DNA of 39,658 nt from Bacillota bacterium (GTDB lineage Bacteria > Bacillota > UBA4882 > UBA10575). The notes below the pieces were generated by a model. The model was given only the letters and a program-made list of their open reading frames with translations, was not told the DNA's origin and did no database searches. Below are positions 22,966 to 30,351 of the stretch, piece after piece (the stretch's first letter is position 1; each line of letters begins with the position of its first letter). The translations under genes were made by a program, and so were the position numbers. The stretch is taken from the NCBI GenBank assembly GCA_012727425.1, contig JAAYHQ010000028.1, positions 1 through 39,658 on the forward strand, read 5' to 3'.

Positions 22966-24261
22966 TCAATTATCTTCCTTTACTTCGACCGTCGCCCCCA
23001 GTTCTTGGAGGGCGGTGAAAAAGCCGGGATAAGATTTGCTGACATGCTCGGCCCCGTTAATCACCAATCCTTTCCGGGTCCGTAAGGCCAGAACCGCATA
23101 GGTCATGATCAAGCGGTGGTCCTGGCAACCATCAAGCTCAATCCCGCCTTCATAACCCGCGGGGTTTCCGGAAATAACAAAGCCGTCGGCGGTTTCGGTC
23201 ACCGCCACCCCGATTTGGCGCAACCCCCGGGCTAAATCACCAATCCGGTCCGATTCTTTCCAGCGGAGATTCGCCACCTGAGAGAAGGTGGTGGTCCCCT
23301 CCGCTAGGCAGGCAACGGCCGCCATGGACAAAACAGCATCAATCGCCTCTTCGCCGTTGAAATCAACGGCCCGGAGGGGGGAGCCTCCCCGGATCGTCAC
23401 TTCCTGCCCGTTCCTGGCGACTGCCACCCCCATCTGCTGGAGATAAGGAATGACCTGTTTCTCGCCTTGCCGGTCGGCGGGGTTGAGCGGGTAAAGGGTG
23501 ACCGCCGAAGGAACCAGGGCGGCCGCCGCCAGGATCGCCGAGGCGGCCGGATAATCCCCCGGTACATGGTAAACACCGGGCTGGTAGTCGCCAGCCGGAA
23601 CCGTAAAGCGCAGTTGGGCCCAGTCCGCTTGCGGGGTCACCCCGGCTTCCGCCATCACCTGGAGCGTCGTGGCCAGCGGCGGCCGGGAGACAAGCCCTTC
23701 TGTAATCTGCAGGCTGAGTCCGCCCAGGAGCGGGGCGATCATCAGCAAAGCCGTGGCATACTGGGAGCTGATCCGGCCGGAAACCACCACGGTCCGCCGG
23801 GTTAAGGGCCGTCCGCCCCGGATGGTAATGGGAAGGTGCCCGTCCACATCCTCAACCTCGGCCCCCAAGTCGCGAAGGGCCGCGAGCAAATGACCTTGCG
23901 GCCTCTTGCCCAACGATTCCGGGTAAGACGTGGTATAGTGGACCTCCGGTAACAGCAAACCAACCGGTAAGAGCAGACGGAGAATCAGGCCCCCGTTGCC
24001 CGGGTCCAAAACCCCCGGCGACCGGGGATTACGCCCAAAACCGCTGATCCGCACTGTTCCTTCGTCCACTTGGACTTTTGCCCCCAAGCGCTGACAACAG
24101 GCCAGCAGGGCGCGGGCGTCATCATTGGTGGCCGGATCCCGAACCACCGATTCCCCTTCCGCCAAAGCGGAAACCCATATGTACCGTGAAGTATAGTTTT
24201 TGGACGGTGGAACCCGTACTTTCCCTTGGAGACGGGAAGCCGGTCCAACAAAAACTTTCAT
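22966..24261 (-). CDS. aroA: EPSP synthase (3-phosphoshikimate 1-carboxyvinyltransferase), divergent
   Basis: AroA joins PEP to shikimate-3-phosphate, the sixth shikimate-pathway step. The 431-residue protein retains the SSQ triad (RISSQYATALL), the ELR-like 'NLRWKESDRIGDLA', 'DGCQDHRLIMTYAVLAL' and 'HVSKSYPGFF' motifs and an acidic 'EEAIDAVLSMAAVA', so it should be active. The N-terminal S3P motif reads PPSKNYTSR where SKS is usual. The PEP-loop reads GNGGLILRL where GN(A/S)GTxxR is usual, so Thr97 (E. coli numbering) is Leu. It overlaps tyrA by four bases. Start ATG behind AGGGGGG. Confidence 0.93.
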   Translation of the reverse strand: MKVFVGPASRLQGKVRVPPSKNYTSRYIWVSALAEGESVVRDPATNDDARALLACCQRLGAKVQVDEGTVRISGFGRNPRSPGVLDPGNGGLILRLLLPVGLLLPEVHYTTSYPESLGKRPQGHLLAALRDLGAEVEDVDGHLPITIRGGRPLTRRTVVVSGRISSQYATALLMIAPLLGGLSLQITEGLVSRPPLATTLQVMAEAGVTPQADWAQLRFTVPAGDYQPGVYHVPGDYPAASAILAAAALVPSAVTLYPLNPADRQGEKQVIPYLQQMGVAVARNGQEVTIRGGSPLRAVDFNGEEAIDAVLSMAAVACLAEGTTTFSQVANLRWKESDRIGDLARGLRQIGVAVTETADGFVISGNPAGYEGGIELDGCQDHRLIMTYAVLALRTRKGLVINGAEHVSKSYPGFFTALQELGATVEVKEDN

Positions 24262-25367
24262 CGGCCTGGCCCCCCTCGCACTTGCGTTTGGAAGCCATGC
24301 GCGCGGAGGAGCCGGACCGCTTCGTTCAACGCCTCTTCGTTCTCAAAGGCCAACCGGAGGGTACCCCCTTCACCCTCCCGGACGCGCAGGATCTCGATGT
24401 CCTTGATATTAACCGTTTTGATGATCTCAACCACCTCCGCAATCGCCCCCGGCCGGTCCTCAATCACCACCACCAACTCATGGAGAAGGGTTAAAAAACC
24501 TTTTTTCCGGGCCGGGAGCTCCGTCCGGGCCGTCGCCGCCCGGCGGAGCCGGGCTTCCAACTCCTCCAACTCGCCGGCGGATAAAGCGGCCGCAAAAGCA
24601 TCCACCTCGGCCGCCAAAGCCCGCAGGGCCAAGAGGAGCGCGTGCCGGTTGGACGCCAAGATCTGCCGCCATAAAGCCGGGGAACCCATCGCCACCCGGG
24701 TCGTGTCATGAAAACCCCCGGCCGCCAAGGACAGGGTGCCCGGATACTGCGCGTTGAAATCCACCGCCACATTGACCAGTGCGGCCGCGACTAAATGGGG
24801 CAGGTGGCTCACCACCGCCACCATTAAATCATGTTCTTCCGGGGTCAGAAGCAAGGGGAGTCCACCGACCATCCGGATAAACTCTTCCAAAGTGGCCAGC
24901 ACAGCCCGGGGCGTCTCCGGTGCCGGAGTCAAAAGATAGACGGCATTCTGAAAAAGAAAAGGGTCGGCAGCGGCCAGCCCCGATTGTTCGCTTCCCGCCA
25001 TCGGATGGCCGCCAACGTAATAAACCCCCTCCGGCAACAACGGCGGCAACTCCTGAGCCAGCTGCCCTTTCGTACTGGCCACATCCGTCAGGATCGTTCC
25101 GGGGGCCAGGGCCGGCGCCGCCGCCAATACCACTTCGGCCATCTTTTCCACCGGGACGGCCAGGACAACCAGGTCCGCCCCCTCTACCGCTGCGGTAACG
25201 CTCTCCGCAATTTCGTGCACCGCCTGCCGGGCAAGGGCTTCCCGGCAAGTAGCCGCCACCGGGTCATACCCAACCACCCAGAGATTCCGCCGTTGCCGGC
25301 AGAGGGCGAGCCCCAGCGAACCGCCGATCAACCCCAATCCAATCAAAGCAATCCGCTGCCGGTTCAT
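24258..25367 (-). CDS. tyrA: Prephenate dehydrogenase with C-terminal ACT domain
   Basis: TyrA oxidises prephenate to 4-hydroxyphenylpyruvate, the committed step to tyrosine. The 369-residue protein has an N-terminal Rossmann motif (IALIGLGLIGGSLGLAL). The family's 'TDVASTKGQLAQEL', 'GGHPMAGSEQSGL' and 'VSHLPHLVAAALV' follow, then 'AAGGFHDTTRVAMGSPALW'. From about residue 290 a C-terminal ACT domain (LHELVVVIEDRPGAIAEV) probably mediates tyrosine feedback. Four-base overlaps with aroA downstream and aroF upstream indicate tight coupling. Confidence 0.95.
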   Translation of the reverse strand: MNRQRIALIGLGLIGGSLGLALCRQRRNLWVVGYDPVAATCREALARQAVHEIAESVTAAVEGADLVVLAVPVEKMAEVVLAAAPALAPGTILTDVASTKGQLAQELPPLLPEGVYYVGGHPMAGSEQSGLAAADPFLFQNAVYLLTPAPETPRAVLATLEEFIRMVGGLPLLLTPEEHDLMVAVVSHLPHLVAAALVNVAVDFNAQYPGTLSLAAGGFHDTTRVAMGSPALWRQILASNRHALLLALRALAAEVDAFAAALSAGELEELEARLRRAATARTELPARKKGFLTLLHELVVVIEDRPGAIAEVVEIIKTVNIKDIEILRVREGEGGTLRLAFENEEALNEAVRLLRAHGFQTQVRGGPGR

Positions 25368-26377
25368 AGACGTTTCCCCATTGCTTCCAGAATTGGGATG
25401 ATCCCTTGAACCAGGGTATGGAACTGGGGAAAATCAAGGGACTGGGGTCCGTCGGAGAGGGCGGCTTCCGGCCGGGGGTGCACTTCCACCATTAAACCGT
25501 CGGCCCCCGCGGCCAACGCGGCCCGGGCCAGGGGCAGCACCAGATCACGACGTCCACCCGCGTGGCTCGGGTCAGCAATAACCGGCAGGTGGCTCCATTC
25601 CTTAACCAGAGCAATGGCACTGACATCCATGGTGTTCCGGGTGGCCGTTTCAAAAGTGCGGATCCCCCGTTCACAGAGGACTACCTGGTAATTACCTTCT
25701 TTCATGATATACTCGGCGGCCATCAGCCATTCTTCGATCGTCGCCGCCATCCCTCTTTTCAAGAGCACCGGGATTTTAGCCCGGCCCACCTCCTGCAGGA
25801 GGGCAAAATTCTGCATGTTGCGCGCACCGATCTGCAGCATCTGGACGTGCTGAGCGACCAATTCCACTTCATGGGGGGAGACCACCTCGGTCACCACGGC
25901 CAAACCGGTGGCCTTCGCCACCTCCTGAATGAGCTTCAGACCTTCCGCCTTTAAGCCCTGGAAGGAATAGGGCGAAGTCCGTGGCTTAAAGGCCCCACCC
26001 CGGAGGATTTTACCCCCGACCGCTTTAAGCTGCTGGGCAGTGGACAAAAGCTGCTCTTCGTCCTCGATCGCGCAGGGACCGGCGATCAGGACCGCTTCTT
26101 CCCCGCCAAAAACCGCCTCCCCCACCTTGACCTGTGTGGAAACGGACTTAAAGTCCCTGCTGGCCAACTTAAAGGGTTTTAAAATCGGAACAACCCTTTC
26201 CACGCCCGCCATCGCAGCCACCGTTGGTATCAAATCTGGACTACGGTCGCCGATGGCACCAATGATCGTTCGCTCCACGCCCTGCGACAGATGGATCCCA
26301 AAACCCGCATTGCGCAGTTGCTCCTGGACCCGGGCAATCTGCTCCTCCGAAGCAGTCCGGGACATGATAATAATCAT
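25364..26377 (-). CDS. aroF: DAHP synthase, class I-beta with N-terminal regulatory domain
   Basis: Catalyses PEP + erythrose-4-phosphate to DAHP, the first shikimate-pathway step. The 337-residue protein has an N-terminal ferredoxin-like domain (about 1-70), as in the feedback-inhibited Thermotoga-type enzyme. The TIM barrel follows, with 'VLIAGPCAIEDEEQLL', 'KILRGGAFKPRTSPYSFQG', 'QIGARNMQNF', 'PVLLKRGMAATIEEW', 'CERGIRTFE' and the metal-site 'ADPSHAGGRRDLV'. The 95-base gap to hisC contains AGGAAAGGATGAGGG, serving as ribosome site, and a weak AAGAAAGA palindrome. Confidence 0.95.
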   Translation of the reverse strand: MIIIMSRTASEEQIARVQEQLRNAGFGIHLSQGVERTIIGAIGDRSPDLIPTVAAMAGVERVVPILKPFKLASRDFKSVSTQVKVGEAVFGGEEAVLIAGPCAIEDEEQLLSTAQQLKAVGGKILRGGAFKPRTSPYSFQGLKAEGLKLIQEVAKATGLAVVTEVVSPHEVELVAQHVQMLQIGARNMQNFALLQEVGRAKIPVLLKRGMAATIEEWLMAAEYIMKEGNYQVVLCERGIRTFETATRNTMDVSAIALVKEWSHLPVIADPSHAGGRRDLVLPLARAALAAGADGLMVEVHPRPEAALSDGPQSLDFPQFHTLVQGIIPILEAMGKRL

Positions 26378-26472
26378 GACACCCTCATCCTTTCCTACCT
26401 TTCTACCATCCTACCATAAAGAAAGAATCTTTCTTGCTTGTGCCGAACAAAGCAAAAAGTATAAATAAACCC

Positions 26473-27582
26473 TTATACCTCTTTCTCCAGAACAGCCAAC
26501 ACCTCTTCGAGCACAGTCAAGAACTTGGCGTTCTGTTCTTCGGTCCCGATCGTCACCCGAATCTGCCAGGGTAAACCGAAGATGTGGGCCGGCCGGACGA
26601 TCACCCCTCTCTTCATCATCTCCTCAAAGACCTGTGTGGCCAGATACGGTGTGGAAAAGAGGATGAAATTAGCCACACTGGGCGTATAAGTGAGTCCAAG
26701 ATTGGTTAAACCCCGCCCGATCTGCTCCATCCCCCGCCGGTTCATTTCCAGGCTCCGCGCCACGTGTTCCCGGTCGGCCAACGCCGCAACGGCGGCGACT
26801 TGCCCGACGCGGTTTACATTGAAGGGCTCACGGACCCGGTTGAGATAAGCAATCAGGTCCGGATCCCCGACGCCGTAGCCCACCCGCAAACCGGCCAAGC
26901 CGTAAATCTTAGAAAAAGTCCGCAGGGTCAGAACCCGCCCGTCCCCTTTGAACTCGATCCCGTTGGGGTAAGCCGCATCCTCCACATATTCGTAATAGGC
27001 CTGGTCGACAATGATCAAGACCTCCGGGGGAATGCGGGCAATGAAGGCTTCCATTTCGGCCCGGGTGTTCATTGTTCCGGTTGGATTATTTGGATTACAG
27101 ACAAAGATCGCTTTGGTCCGCGCAGTCACAGCCGCCGCCATCTTATCCAGGTCATGGCCCAAATCCTCCCCTTTGACCTTAACCAGCCGGGCCCCCATCA
27201 ATTGCGTGGCGTAAGCGTACTCGCCAAAGGTCGGATCGGCCACGATCACCTCGTCTCCCGGCCGAAAGAAGGCCTCGGCCACTAGTTTGATCACCTCGTC
27301 GCAACCATTGCCGACAATGATCTCCTCGGGTTTAACCCCAAGTTCCGCAGCCAAAGCTTCTTTTAACAGGTAACAGTTGCCATCGGGATAAAGATGGGTG
27401 TCCGCCAGGGCTGCCGTTGCCGCCTCCACCGCCCGGGGCGAAGGCCCGAGGGGGTTTTCGTTGGAAGCCAACTTCACCACTTCCTGCAGCCCCAATTCCC
27501 TCTGCACTTCCTCAATGGGTTTGCCGGGAACGTACGGGGTAATCCCCAGGATCTCCCGGCGAATCAATTTATCAACCGTCAT
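26473..27582 (-). CDS. hisC: Histidinol-phosphate / aromatic aminotransferase HisC
   Basis: A PLP-dependent class II aminotransferase. The ATG at 27582 is behind AAGGAG and GGAGG motifs; 369 residues. Landmarks: 'KLASNENPLGPSPRA', 'VGNGCDEVIKLVAEAF', 'CNPNNPTGT', 'QAYYEY' and the PLP lysine in 'RTFSKIYGLAGLRVGYG'. In an operon with aroH, aroF, tyrA and aroA it probably supplies tyrosine/phenylalanine transamination, perhaps together with histidine biosynthesis, as HisC does in B. subtilis. It overlaps the phosphatase gene upstream by 11 bases. Confidence 0.93.
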   Translation of the reverse strand: MTVDKLIRREILGITPYVPGKPIEEVQRELGLQEVVKLASNENPLGPSPRAVEAATAALADTHLYPDGNCYLLKEALAAELGVKPEEIIVGNGCDEVIKLVAEAFFRPGDEVIVADPTFGEYAYATQLMGARLVKVKGEDLGHDLDKMAAAVTARTKAIFVCNPNNPTGTMNTRAEMEAFIARIPPEVLIIVDQAYYEYVEDAAYPNGIEFKGDGRVLTLRTFSKIYGLAGLRVGYGVGDPDLIAYLNRVREPFNVNRVGQVAAVAALADREHVARSLEMNRRGMEQIGRGLTNLGLTYTPSVANFILFSTPYLATQVFEEMMKRGVIVRPAHIFGLPWQIRVTIGTEEQNAKFLTVLEEVLAVLEKEV

Positions 27583-28186
27583 TTCTCCTTCCTCCCTCCA
27601 CCAACTGCCATGTTCCGTTCCAAACCACGACCACCCGTTCGGCATTGGCGGGCGACTTGCGGATCAGGCCCAGCCCGGCCCGGAAGAAAGCCCGGATAAA
27701 ACCGCCATGGGAGACAACAAGCACGCGCCGTCCCGCAAAAACAGTCGCCAACATCGACATTGTCGCTACCGCCCGCGCTTCGATCTGGGTGCGCGTTTCC
27801 AATTCCGGCAATGACAGATGGTCACTGCCTTCCGGGTACTTTGCTTCAATCTCCGCCGCTGTTAAGCCTTCCAGCGGTCCAAAATTCCGTTCGCGGAGAC
27901 CTTTGTGGAAAAAAACCGGAATCTCGAGCACCCGGCCGATAATCTCGCCGCTTTCCGCGGCTCTTTGCAGATCGCTGGCGACGACCACCTCCCAGCCCTC
28001 GTCCTTGAGTGCTGCGGCCAATTGGCCAATCTCCTTCCGGCCCTGTTCGTTCAAGGGTGTATCCGTGCGCCCTTGGATACGGTTCTCCCGGTTCCAATCG
28101 GTGGTCCCGTGGCGAACCAGACAAAACCTAGTCACGGGCGGCGACCCGGTCGGGACGGAGCGTTTTGGCTTCGCGTAAATAGACAT
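27572..28186 (-). CDS. Histidine-phosphatase (phosphoglycerate-mutase-like) family protein
   Basis: A broad-specificity histidine phosphatase or cofactor-dependent mutase-like enzyme. The catalytic motif FCLVRHGTTDWNRENRIQG, 'LNEQGRKEIGQLA', 'ASDLQRAAESGEII', 'RERNFGPLEG' and 'VVSHGGFIRAFF' are present. I use the ATG at 28186, six bases after AGGAGG, giving 204 residues. This places its start 59 bases inside aroH. A GTG at 28135 would give a conventional short N-terminus but has no ribosome site. Substrate unknown; the operon context suggests a phosphorylated aromatic or histidine-pathway intermediate, which is only inference. Confidence 0.88.
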   Translation of the reverse strand: MSIYAKPKRSVPTGSPPVTRFCLVRHGTTDWNRENRIQGRTDTPLNEQGRKEIGQLAAALKDEGWEVVVASDLQRAAESGEIIGRVLEIPVFFHKGLRERNFGPLEGLTAAEIEAKYPEGSDHLSLPELETRTQIEARAVATMSMLATVFAGRRVLVVSHGGFIRAFFRAGLGLIRKSPANAERVVVVWNGTWQLVEGGRRNDG

Positions 28187-28502
28187 GTTGCACCTCCTGA
28201 CCGGGACCACCGTGGTAAGCATGGATTAAAACCCGGATACAGCGGGGTAAAGACCCGGGAACGGCCATCTCGACACTGTCCAGCAACGCCCAGTCGTTAT
28301 AGCCTAATTGGCGGGCGGCTTCCGCCGGGAAAGCGGCATTTAGATCGGGCGTCGCCGTGAAAAAAACACTGATCACCCGCCGGGGGTCGATTTTATTCCG
28401 CGCGATCATCTCGGTCAGCAACTCACGCGTTGCGGCCAGAATCGCTTCCCGTGTATTGGCGTCAACCGTGGTTGCCCCCCGAAACGCTTTTACCGTCTCC
28501 AC
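28128..28502 (-). CDS. aroH: Chorismate mutase, AroH class
   Basis: Converts chorismate to prephenate. The GTG at 28502 lies six bases behind GAGGAGG, giving 124 residues beginning METVKAFRGATTVDANT, the standard AroH N-terminus. An upstream GTG at 28532 is too near its AAGGAG. Other AroH motifs: 'AATRELLTEMIARN', 'VISVFFTATPDLNAAFPAEAAR', 'LDSVEMAVPGSLPRCIRVLIH' and the C-terminal 'VQHVYLREAKTLRPD'. It is first in the aromatic operon; no prephenate dehydratase is present, so this cluster is tyrosine-branch oriented. Confidence 0.93.
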   Translation of the reverse strand: METVKAFRGATTVDANTREAILAATRELLTEMIARNKIDPRRVISVFFTATPDLNAAFPAEAARQLGYNDWALLDSVEMAVPGSLPRCIRVLIHAYHGGPGQEVQHVYLREAKTLRPDRVAARD

Positions 28503-28688
28503 CCGTCTCCTCCTCTCCAGATCCTGCTTCACGGCTCCTTAATTAACCAACTGATTAAGCACAACCTAAAAACTACTCCCACTGAGCTCTATTTTATATG
28601 GGCACCCTTGCCGGAGAACGGACCGCTATACCGCAGAATTGACTGGCGGTCTGAGCGCAAGTAGAGCAAGACGCTCTCACCCGCGGTT
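28503..28688 (-). promoter_or_regulatory. Leader/intergenic region of the aroH operon with hairpins and NAG triplets
   Basis: A 186-base gap between hutP and aroH. Read on minus, potential pairings include AGAGC/GCTCT, GACCGC/GCGGTC and an enclosing AGAAC/GTTCT, so the first half could fold as a multibranch structure. The ACCGC arm has two competing GCGGT partners. TATAAA at 28598-28593 could be a -10 but has no clear -35. Further on come TAG-N4-CAG-N6-TAG-N4-TAG (28591-28566). There is no rho-independent terminator and no T-box signature, so a classical attenuator is not visible. Function unproven. Confidence 0.35.
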
Positions 28689-29102
28689 CTATTTAAGCGC
28701 CCGATGCCCGAGGCCGACCGCCACCTCGTTGAGATGCAAGAGGCCGACGGCACAAAAGACCGCCACGCTCAGGTGATCACCCCGGCGGGCCAAGCCGATT
28801 TTTCCGCCCAGATTCAAACCGAAAGCCTTCGGGATAATCTGCTGCAACGCCTCATGGGTGGCCCCGGCCACCGCACCCTCTTCGGCATGGGTATCCCCCA
28901 CCAAATACTCGCGCTTGGCAGCGACCACCGCCCGTTCAATTATGGTCTTCACCGACTGCATCATTTCCCCGCCAAAATCGACCGCCGCAGCCCGGATCTG
29001 CTCTTCCCGCAGCATCTCCTTGAAGAGCCGTTCTTCCTCCCGCGAACGGCTGATCGCCATTTTGAGAGCCGCCGCCGCCACTTCTTTACTGTTTCCGCTC
29101 AT
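28689..29102 (-). CDS. hutP: HutP-family RNA-binding regulator
   Basis: HutP of B. subtilis is an L-histidine- and Mg-dependent antiterminator that binds NAG-repeat RNA. This 137-residue protein shares the C-terminal core: EEGAVAGATHEALQQIIPKA, 'FGLNLGGKIGLARRGDHLSVAVF', then 'GLLHLNEVAVGLGHR'. These include the family's histidine ligand region and closing Gly-His. The N-terminal half (KEVAAAALKMAISRSREEERLFKEM) is the longer helical form common in clostridial homologues. No hut catabolic gene is near; instead the aromatic/hisC operon follows. A terminator precedes it, so it should have its own promoter. Symbol by homology; the target is unknown. Confidence 0.82.
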   Translation of the reverse strand: MSGNSKEVAAAALKMAISRSREEERLFKEMLREEQIRAAAVDFGGEMMQSVKTIIERAVVAAKREYLVGDTHAEEGAVAGATHEALQQIIPKAFGLNLGGKIGLARRGDHLSVAVFCAVGLLHLNEVAVGLGHRALK

Positions 29103-29124
29103 CGCTTACATCACCCCCGGTAAT

Positions 29125-29147
29125 AAAAAAAGCACCCCACGGAGTGC
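29125..29147 (-). terminator. Rho-independent terminator upstream of hutP
   Basis: Minus-strand hairpin GCACTC-CGTG-GGGTGC (29147-29132) is followed by seven Ts. It lies 23 bases before the hutP start, so it ends whatever is transcribed from 29148-29500 (the small membrane gene and/or an unassigned RNA) or acts as an attenuator for hutP. Confidence 0.8.
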
Positions 29148-29367
29148 CTGCAAACTAAGCTTTACCCGGTCGGGAACTGCCCTTTTAACGGGGAGAGGTT
29201 GCAGTGTTCAACCGCAACCATCAGGTCAACGGACCACCGGCCGTTCCGCCCGTTCGTTCCGCAATTCCCTTATGTAAGCTGCCACACTACCGTCTTGCCT
29301 TTTTACCATACAATCTAACATATTTCCCCGCTTTACGCAAGATGGCAGCAGGCATTCTTGCCATTTT
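29148..29367 (-). other. 220-base gene-free stretch, possible structured RNA ending at a terminator
   Basis: Between the small membrane gene and the terminator. Read on minus it has a promoter-like TTGCGT-N17-TAGATT (near 29340-29310). Two CGGAACG repeats and hairpins GGTTGC/GCAACC, CCC/GGG and CCCG/CGGG follow, and then the terminator. No credible protein start with a ribosome site is seen. This would fit a small noncoding RNA or a hutP attenuator leader. I do not recognise SRP RNA, 6S RNA, tmRNA, a T-box or a known riboswitch in it. Confidence 0.3.
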
Positions 29368-29514
29368 TTAATATAGCCCGTGCACCGGCTGCCCCTCCAA
29401 CTGTTCCACCACACAAAAAGTGGCCCGGAAGGACGGAAGCAACAGGAGGAGCTGAATCAGACACAAAGTAATCACGAGGACGAGTAGTAGATTTTTCCAG
29501 AAACGCTCCACCAC
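29368..29514 (-). CDS. 48-residue single-pass membrane protein, unknown function
   Basis: A short frame directly downstream of the patatin-like gene (15-base gap). A GTG at 29514 follows GGAAGGGG at about eight bases; a TTG two codons earlier (29520) is a less well spaced alternative. The product reads VVERFWKNLLLVLVITLCLI, then QLLLLLPSFRATFCVVEQLE and a short tail. This gives one strong membrane helix (about residues 9-26) followed by a short extracytoplasmic or cytoplasmic tail. No family recognised. The clean hydrophobic segment, codon usage and operonic position argue it is real. Confidence 0.6.
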   Translation of the reverse strand: MVERFWKNLLLVLVITLCLIQLLLLLPSFRATFCVVEQLEGQPVHGLY

Positions 29515-29529
29515 GGTCAACCCCTTCCG

Positions 29530-30351
29530 CTAAAACCGGTCCCCGGCCGCTTTTTCCCGGCCGCTTTGAAACTCCGCAATGATCCGGCGCATCGCCGGCA
29601 AAGCCTTCCGGGCGGCGGCTTCACCCTGGGCAATACACTCCTCCACCCGCGAAAACTGGAGGGTACCCACATCCCCCACCTCCGGTGCGAGGATGAAATC
29701 GGCATGTTGCAACTGGATCCCGTCCAACTTGTGCATCATAATCTCCGAACTGCGGTAAAGAATGTCAAAGACGCTCCGCGGCGGTTCCGGAACCAAATCA
29801 CCGCCCACGTATACAGCAAAGACCAGATCCATGCCCATCGCCGCCGCGGCGATCACCGGAACACCCGCCACCAGTCCGCCGTCGACCAGCAGGCGCTCAC
29901 CATGGGGGACCGGCGTGAAGACGCCGGGAATCGAGATCGAAGCCCGCACCGCCAGATCGAGGGGGCCTTGCGTAAAAACAACCTCCTCGCCGGTGAACAG
30001 ATCGGTGGCAACAATCCGCACCGGAACCGCCAATTCCTCCAGCCTTTTGCGCTTCGTCAGTAACCGGATTAATGGGATCAGCCGTTTCCCTTCGACCAGT
30101 CCGTAGCGGGGAAACCGGAGGTCGATAAAGTCTTCCCAGGCGATCCGGGTTGCTAAAGCCGCCAAGTATTTCAGATCGGTCCCGGCGGCAAAAAGCGCCG
30201 CCATCACCGCCCCCATACTCGTTCCGGCCAGTGCATCCACGGGGATCCCCTCTTCCTGTAAAACCTTGAGGACCCCAAGGTGGGCAAAACCACGCACCCC
30301 CCCACCACCCAACGCCCAGGCGATCCTGGGCCGTGGCCGCAAAACTGTCAT
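29530..30351 (-). CDS. Patatin-like phospholipase (RssA/YlbK type)
   Basis: A Ser-Asp dyad lipid hydrolase. The ATG at 30351 lies eight bases after AAAGGGGG; 273 residues. Oxyanion-hole motif ALGGGGVRGFAHLG at 13-26, nucleophile elbow GTSMG with Ser45, and DGGLVAG with Asp157 are all intact. No signal peptide, so it is probably a cytoplasmic or membrane-surface phospholipase/lysophospholipase. It follows lonB with a 65-base gap and is followed by the small membrane gene. The physiological lipid is not known. Confidence 0.9.
   Translation of the reverse strand: MTVLRPRPRIAWALGGGGVRGFAHLGVLKVLQEEGIPVDALAGTSMGAVMAALFAAGTDLKYLAALATRIAWEDFIDLRFPRYGLVEGKRLIPLIRLLTKRKRLEELAVPVRIVATDLFTGEEVVFTQGPLDLAVRASISIPGVFTPVPHGERLLVDGGLVAGVPVIAAAAMGMDLVFAVYVGGDLVPEPPRSVFDILYRSSEIMMHKLDGIQLQHADFILAPEVGDVGTLQFSRVEECIAQGEAAARKALPAMRRIIAEFQSGREKAAGDRF

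Follow-up and report, generated by a model that had tools for sequence, protein, structure and literature searches.

A widespread HutP subfamily as a probable RNA switch protein for aromatic amino acid genes in Bacillota

What does a member of the HutP family, named for histidine use, control when it lies at the head of an operon for aromatic amino acid synthesis? This is the arrangement in the window (the whole stretch of 39,658 nt that was analysed). A preliminary description of this DNA had named the genes as a hutP homologue followed by aroH, a phosphatase gene, hisC, aroF, tyrA and aroA, with no hut genes nearby. It had proposed that histidine-bound HutP reads NAG triplets with 4-nt spacing (NAG-N4) in a structured leader between hutP and aroH, and so ties histidine to aromatic synthesis. 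Profile matches bear out all the gene assignments (Table 1). Eight neighbouring proteins were tested, and no hut enzyme is among them; nor did the window's own genome yield a match to the histidine-lyase family PF00221, which 2 of the 29 genomes of the class carry. In Bacillus subtilis HisC/AroJ has a dual role; hence the simpler assumption is that the hisC gene found here encodes an aromatic aminotransferase, its probable role as judged from gene context.

Table 1. Features of the hutP-aro region of the window
Feature	Coordinates	Strand	Evidence and remarks
Promoter-like TTGCGT-17-TAGATT 5′ of the repeats	29312..29340	-	read by eye; absent from consensus scan list
Triple repeat GGCAAGAC-GGTAGTGT-GGCAG, candidate HutP site in hutP leader	29279..29299	-	1 mismatch to GGYAGNRYGGYAGNRYGGYAG
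Repeat segment able to pair with terminator 5′ arm 29147-29139	29284..29293	-	possible antiterminator
Intrinsic terminator stem-loop with U-rich tail	29130..29149	-	8 pairs, loop 4; stem end 27 nt 5′ of hutP
hutP, aro-type subfamily, 137 aa	28689..29102	-	PF09021 152.8 bits, cut-off 25; AF2 model
aroH, chorismate mutase	28128..28532, alternative start GTG 28502 possible	-	PF07736, TIGR01796
Histidine-phosphatase-superfamily gene	27572..28222	-	PF00300
hisC-type aminotransferase	26473..27645	-	TIGR01141 above cut-off
Triple repeat GGTAGGAT-GGTAGAAA-GGTAG before aroF	26395..26415	-	1 mismatch
aroF, DAHP synthase	25364..26377, ATG at 26377	-	TIGR01361/NF006421 above cut-off
tyrA, prephenate dehydrogenase	24258..25367	-	PF02153, PF20463
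aroA, EPSP synthase	22966..24261	-	TIGR01356 above cut-off

The string UAG-N4-CAG-N6-UAG-N4-UAG is present at 28591-28566 exactly as claimed, at a frequency that chance provides. The 186 nt of 28688-28503 contain two NAG-N4-NAG pairs vs 2.13 in dinucleotide shuffles (P 0.65), and two such pairs within 30 nt arise in 40% of the shuffles. The supposed leader structure is equally unremarkable: the fold of 28688-28534 has a z of +0.52, with 140 of 200 shuffles equally or more stable. Among relatives the adjacency of hutP and aroH is kept, while the N4 spacing is not. The four-triplet pattern was found in none of 15 further gaps from the same family, 10 of which have scattered NAG-N4 pairs, and among 105 hutP-aroH gaps only the window's own contains it. 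Among the 75 gaps of more than 30 nt there is no excess of N4 pairs (25 vs 29.5 ± 3.4) but one of N5 pairs (40 vs 28.7 ± 3.8, z 3.0). We rejected the NAG-N4 motif of the gap as a regulatory site because it occurs at chance frequency without conservation, and the gap structure as an RNA switch because its stability is no better than that of shuffles.

The gene arrangement itself is common. Among 152 full-length HutP loci, all distinct, 105 have aroH as the next gene after hutP, a share that should not be taken as a phylum average since the loci (collected by similarity to the window HutP, as best-scoring PF09021 matches and as hand-chosen matches) favour relatives of the window protein and are biased to the subfamily that we call aro-type. 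Three partial HutP loci (L076, L077 and L079) were left out of this set and nine duplicates were merged. The gap is at most 60 nt in 78 of the 105 loci; the long gap of the window is therefore not a natural leader. PF09021 occurs in 257 of 398 genomes of the phylum, 26 of 29 of the class and 16 of 16 of the family, and the taxa among 48 named HutP loci include Hydrogenispora, Peptococcaceae, Desulfotomaculum, Negativicutes and Oscillospiraceae. The linkage of hutP to aromatic genes extends far beyond the genus.

For 37 of the 46 loci that lack aroH by a slightly wider criterion the next ORF was obtained. It is trpX in three (L158, L163 and L164) and aroF in one (L131). In 19 the start of the ORF resembles cytidylate kinase by eye, and the two that were checked match PF02224. 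Several lineages (L046, L048, L055, L060 and similar) have hutP immediately 5′ of such a cytidylate-kinase-like gene, which takes the place of aroH. The position of hutP before genes of this kind at some loci counts against the explanation that we favour below.

In the window the conserved element lies 5′ of hutP and again at aroF rather than in the hutP-aroH gap, and its spacing is N5, not N4. It consists of three GGYAG units with a period of 8 (unit GGYAGGAY), that is, NAG-N5-NAG-N5-NAG. When triple NAG with gaps of 0-13 was sought upstream of hutP, N5 occurred in 19 of the 152 loci vs 8.7 ± 2.5 in shuffles (z 4.1); the next best gap was N1 (z 1.9), and N4 had a z of 0.2. The copy in the hutP leader of the window reads GGCAAGACGGTAGTGTGGCAG at 29299-29279; it is conserved in congeners, and none of 1000 shuffles of the intergenic region matched as well. 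The copy before aroF (26415-26395) reads GGTAGGATGGTAGAAAGGTAG and ends 17 nt 5′ of the ATG, abutting the ribosome-binding region. Again 0 of 1000 shuffles of the gap matched as well, and congeners have similar sites at the matching place. TAGATT boxes akin to that of the window precede the repeats in three other loci (L087, L085 and L091). Rfam at gathering scores detected only tRNAs and no leader family in the window, and at E 5 it gave no credible leader match over 28100-29560. Ten of 11 other loci had no Rfam match; the exception, L195, has one T-box on the strand opposite its trpX leader.

A scan of the region of the window returned four terminator-like sites vs 1.8 expected, and the terminator before hutP was found in most of the same-family loci listed. 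The repeat can pair with the 5′ arm of this terminator in a duplex of nine pairs with one bulge (−12.3 kcal/mol). This duplex belongs to the minimum-energy fold of the hutP leader, which is thus the antiterminator form; the leader (29306-29124) has a fold z of −2.44, with 4 of 200 shuffles as stable. Relative to short-leader congeners (L087 and L035), the window leader has ∼100 nt extra between repeats and terminator (29270-29150, minus strand).

Repeats followed by an intrinsic terminator were collected in 51 distinct leaders (19 of hutP, 18 of aroF and 14 of trpX). The bases of the second unit are G (50), G (51), T/C (51), A (47), G (49), and the 5′ arm and loop of the terminator, often CTCC-TACC, are complementary to the repeat GGTAGG(A). 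The mean energy of the repeat:arm duplex is −11.5 kcal/mol vs −9.85 ± 0.27 with arms swapped among leaders (0/10,000) and −10.43 ± 0.24 with arms swapped within the same gene (0/10,000 as strong), in permutation tests limited to leaders directly before hutP, aroF or trpX and inflated by relatedness among genomes; with only 19 dissimilar leaders P is 0.003. Free folding of 54 leaders gave the antiterminator in 17 (7.1 expected with shuffled repeats) and kept the terminator in 32, and with the repeats held single-stranded the terminator was intact in 52. Together, the repeat:arm pairing and the folds support a competition between repeat pairing and the terminator. Support for the antiterminator from free folds is modest; its appearance in only 17 of 54, with the terminator kept in 32, counts against the explanation favoured below.

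Which genes carry the element? We searched 29 genomes of the class with up to two mismatches and 398 genomes of the phylum with up to one, using the reversed pattern as control. The class genomes gave 85 matches in sum vs 46 for the reversed pattern, thus many single class-genome sites are noise. Three places recur in congeners: the hutP leader, the start of aroF and, third, the leader of an operon for a TrpX-type ABC transporter. In the window's own genome the latter site lies on contig C69 (L195, 1510-1530, minus strand), where repeats and terminator precede the operon; its TrpX-type gene matches PF04392 at 299.9 bits and NF041285 at 326.7 bits, below the cut-off of 390. On the opposite strand of L195 (1777-2016, plus strand) the T-box lies 5′ of genes that by eye are ilvN- and ilvC-like. 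One congener has tandem TrpX-type leaders (L197, 2454 and 4056, plus strand), the first before an apparently truncated gene copy.

In the phylum, 134 of 398 genomes have the motif at up to one mismatch. Of 30 sites examined as loci, 24 precede a gene of a wider set, 17 of these being aroF; this set includes gene types first found through the motif itself (TPL-like, DctP, AMP-ligase and SSF). With the strict set of aroF, trpX and hutP the count is 20 of 30 vs 1 of 19 non-overlapping reversed-pattern sites, where the p-value of 2e-5 is only nominal because the listing groups relatives: the 20 sites, all before aroF or trpX, come from four families (f17, f31, f50 and f77). The single control match is also 5′ of aroF, and the reversed-pattern control overstates the background because 11 of its 30 loci overlap forward sites. 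Split by HutP status, set genes follow 22 of 24 sites from HutP-positive and 2 of 6 from HutP-negative genomes. The six sites with no set gene downstream (L215, L216, L217, L220, L221 and L224) look like chance, coding or tandem-repeat matches; they too count against the favoured explanation.

Twenty further sites from 16 families were hand-picked, with perfect or recurring matches favoured. By blastp the genes downstream are aroF (3), AMP-ligase (3), hutP (2), a DctP-type transporter (2), tyrA, hisC and trpX (1 each); the rest are sodium/solute symporters (4, three checked) and, one each, prephenate dehydratase (pheA), shikimate dehydrogenase (aroE) and a PaaK-type phenylacetate-CoA ligase. 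Thus 11 sites precede aromatic-pathway genes or hutP, while the 9 before transporters and ligases are counted only because they recur. Genes for tryptophanase/tyrosine phenol-lyase (NF009709) follow two leaders, and no trp biosynthetic gene is present among the motif sites identified. The targets that look catabolic (paaK and tryptophanase/tyrosine phenol-lyase) count against plain end-product repression and suggest a more complex logic.

The aro-type protein is predicted to keep the HutP fold. Searching PDB with an AF2 model of the window HutP (pLDDT 89.9) gave HutP structures as all of the best 11 fold matches (E 2.9e-7 to 1.5e-4, 13-21% identity), led by 1VEA, 1WPV and 1WMQ, with a TM-score (by query) of 0.75-0.80 for the first seven. 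The fold was predicted because PDB sequence searches found no HutP, either with the window protein or, even at E 10, with a profile of the subfamily. For comparison a hut-type set was made of 20 sequences and B. subtilis HutP; with the latter as query, 37 of 398 genomes had a match, and in 20 the identity was 49-93%. H73, H77 and H138 of B. subtilis HutP form what we take to be the metal/histidine site. At the positions aligned with H73 and H77 all 152 aro-type proteins have Gly, and all 21 hut-type ones have His. The residue aligned with H138 is L in 151 of 152 vs His in 21 of 21, although a neighbouring His (H123) of the aro-type could replace H138, as the alignment there is uncertain by one position. 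At E137 and E139 the aro-type has H (148/152) and D/N (151/152), and the 21 hut-type proteins have invariant Glu. With both H73 and H77 replaced by Gly throughout, histidine is unlikely to be the ligand.

The three hut-type loci that were checked all adjoin genes of the PF00221 histidine-lyase family. N4 triplets occur downstream of hut-type hutP in 9 of 20 loci vs 0-2 for other gaps, and upstream in 5 of 20 vs 0-3 (gaps of 2-8 counted, without shuffles). A number of genomes have both types, with at least two PF09021 matches (e.g. G111, G178, G198, G235, G271, G350 and G360). The hut-type loci (L245-L264), which in several genomes coexist with the aro-type, are set apart from it by both the residues of the ligand site and the spacing of the triplets. 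Further HutP-like proteins (e.g. in G027, G045, G250 and G253), 24-39% identical to B. subtilis HutP, possibly form a third group. The best explanation of the sequence comparisons is that aro-type proteins are a distinct, widespread HutP subfamily. We give about even odds to the broader proposal that this subfamily left histidine use and became a global tyrosine/phenylalanine sensor with no histidine/metal site and a NAG-N5 code; the regulons would then be kept apart by a single base of spacing, and genomes with two paralogues would run two insulated codes.

The reading that we favour, with a probability of roughly 70%, is attenuation of aromatic amino acid genes by aro-type HutP bound to their NAG-N5 leaders. 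When an effector (tyrosine or phenylalanine most likely, rather than histidine; alternatively a product of the aromatic pathway) is plentiful, HutP would bind and cover the three N5-spaced NAG triplets in the leader of the hutP operon and in those of further aromatic genes. Unbound repeats would pair with the 5′ arm of the terminator and let transcription proceed, whereas repeats covered by HutP would leave the terminator to form and transcription would stop. Where the repeats abut the ribosome-binding site, as at aroF of the window, bound HutP would hinder translation. We infer binder, ligand and sign from comparisons of loci, which establish the repeats with their N5 spacing, the terminators and the complementarity of repeat and arm, as well as the gene set, the co-occurrence with HutP, the lost histidines and the predicted fold. 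Tyrosine or phenylalanine fits the gene set best: the recurring genes are those of the common pathway, of phenylalanine and of tyrosine together with transporters, and trp biosynthetic genes are absent from the sites identified.

The identity of the binder had to be weighed against TRAP (MtrB), since TRAP too reads NAG triplets and is present (PF02081) in 27 of 29 class genomes and 200 of 398 phylum genomes. The window's own genome has a homologue on contig C7 (12114-12305, L285). The motif occurs in 117 of 257 HutP-positive vs 17 of 141 HutP-negative genomes (p 2e-12), where HutP-positive means any PF09021 match and not the aro-type alone, and where the Fisher tests are likewise inflated by relatedness; for the reversed control, contaminated by true sites, the counts are 45 of 257 vs 14 of 141 (p 0.05). 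The effect of HutP is seen in TRAP-negative genomes (32/93 vs 12/105, p 1e-4) and in TRAP-positive ones (85/164 vs 5/36, p 3e-5). Because the motif tracks HutP with and without TRAP, HutP is the best candidate binder on this correlation. Seven selected genomes with a single, hut-type PF09021 match all lack the motif. Two results count against the favoured explanation: 140 of 257 HutP-positive genomes have no site at up to one mismatch, and two HutP-negative genomes, G121 (80% complete) and G295 (91% complete), have sites before aroF and an AMP-ligase gene, which speaks against HutP as the binder. We consider it improbable that a different RNA-binding protein, above all the TRAP homologue, occupies the repeats and that the position of hutP is incidental. 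Besides its wide occurrence and its taste for NAG, TRAP is associated with the motif among HutP-positive genomes (85/164 vs 32/93, p 0.009); yet in genomes without HutP it has no effect (5/36 vs 12/105, p 0.77), and on that ground TRAP is not supported as the binder. Moreover, the HutP-positive, TRAP-negative genomes with the motif have sites before trpX (G115 and G298), paaK (G235) and a DctP gene (G350), and three units with 5-nt gaps do not fit the many units with 2-3 nt gaps that TRAP uses.

A different doubt concerns the sign. The same regulator at the same sites could act oppositely, with ligand-bound aro-type HutP preventing termination or stabilizing messages. B. subtilis HutP is an antiterminator (PMC7430163), and its opposite action counts against attenuation; induction would also suit the catabolic targets, and the free fold keeps the terminator in most leaders. 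Still, the repeats lie 5′ of the terminator and are complementary to its 5′ arm, single-stranded repeats leave nearly all terminators intact, and the biosynthetic targets together with the site adjoining the aroF ribosome-binding region fit repression. We therefore regard the opposite sign as unlikely. Far less credible is the original proposal, in which HutP would respond to histidine through the NAG-N4 motifs between hutP and aroH. The string is literally there, the operon contains hisC and the window protein belongs to the HutP family, but the string has chance frequency and no conservation, the gap is unstructured and Gly stands for H73 and H77 in every aro-type protein. What survives of the preliminary description, on comparative inference, is a HutP-type RNA regulator of aromatic synthesis with NAG-type repeats; its site, spacing and histidine ligand do not.

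The proposed mode of aro-type HutP resembles TRAP attenuation at the trp operon, where repeated NAG triplets overlap the antiterminator and a ribosome-binding-site mode is used as well: here too NAG repeats overlap a putative antiterminator before aromatic amino acid genes. The differences are that aro-type HutP is of another protein family, that its motif has three units with 5-nt gaps (period-8 units in the 51 leaders vs the many units with 2-3 nt gaps of TRAP leaders) and that, where HutP is absent, the presence of the motif does not follow that of TRAP. T-box leaders also attenuate transcription of amino acid genes in Bacillota; the likeness ends there, as the window has no Rfam leader match. 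With B. subtilis HutP (1VEA, 1WMQ and 1WPV) the aro-type shares the Pfam family, the predicted fold, NAG triplets in leader RNA and a gene position within the operon thought to be under its control. It differs in having Gly for H73 and H77, in not keeping H138 and its Glu neighbours, in N5 spacing, in aromatic rather than histidine-use genes and in having repeats 5′ of the terminator, whereas the B. subtilis repeats lie in the terminator region. The uORFC-13-1 motif, confined to Acholeplasma and environmental sequences, is likewise an element beside a terminator before aroF; it differs in having a uORF with Phe codons, and GGYAG repeats are not mentioned in the accessible text of its description (PMC8632094).

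A search of mainly open-access literature found no published HutP-type attenuation of aromatic genes, although an earlier description is possible. Aro-type HutP is probably a widespread, undescribed RNA switch protein for aromatic amino acid genes. If so, a family named for histidine use and present in 257 of 398 genomes would in large part regulate aromatic synthesis and uptake at the RNA level, by a simple leader code open to search, testing and engineering. The paralogues with 4-nt and 5-nt spacing would then show, as a clean natural experiment, how triplet spacing is measured by an RNA-binding protein that is a hexamer.
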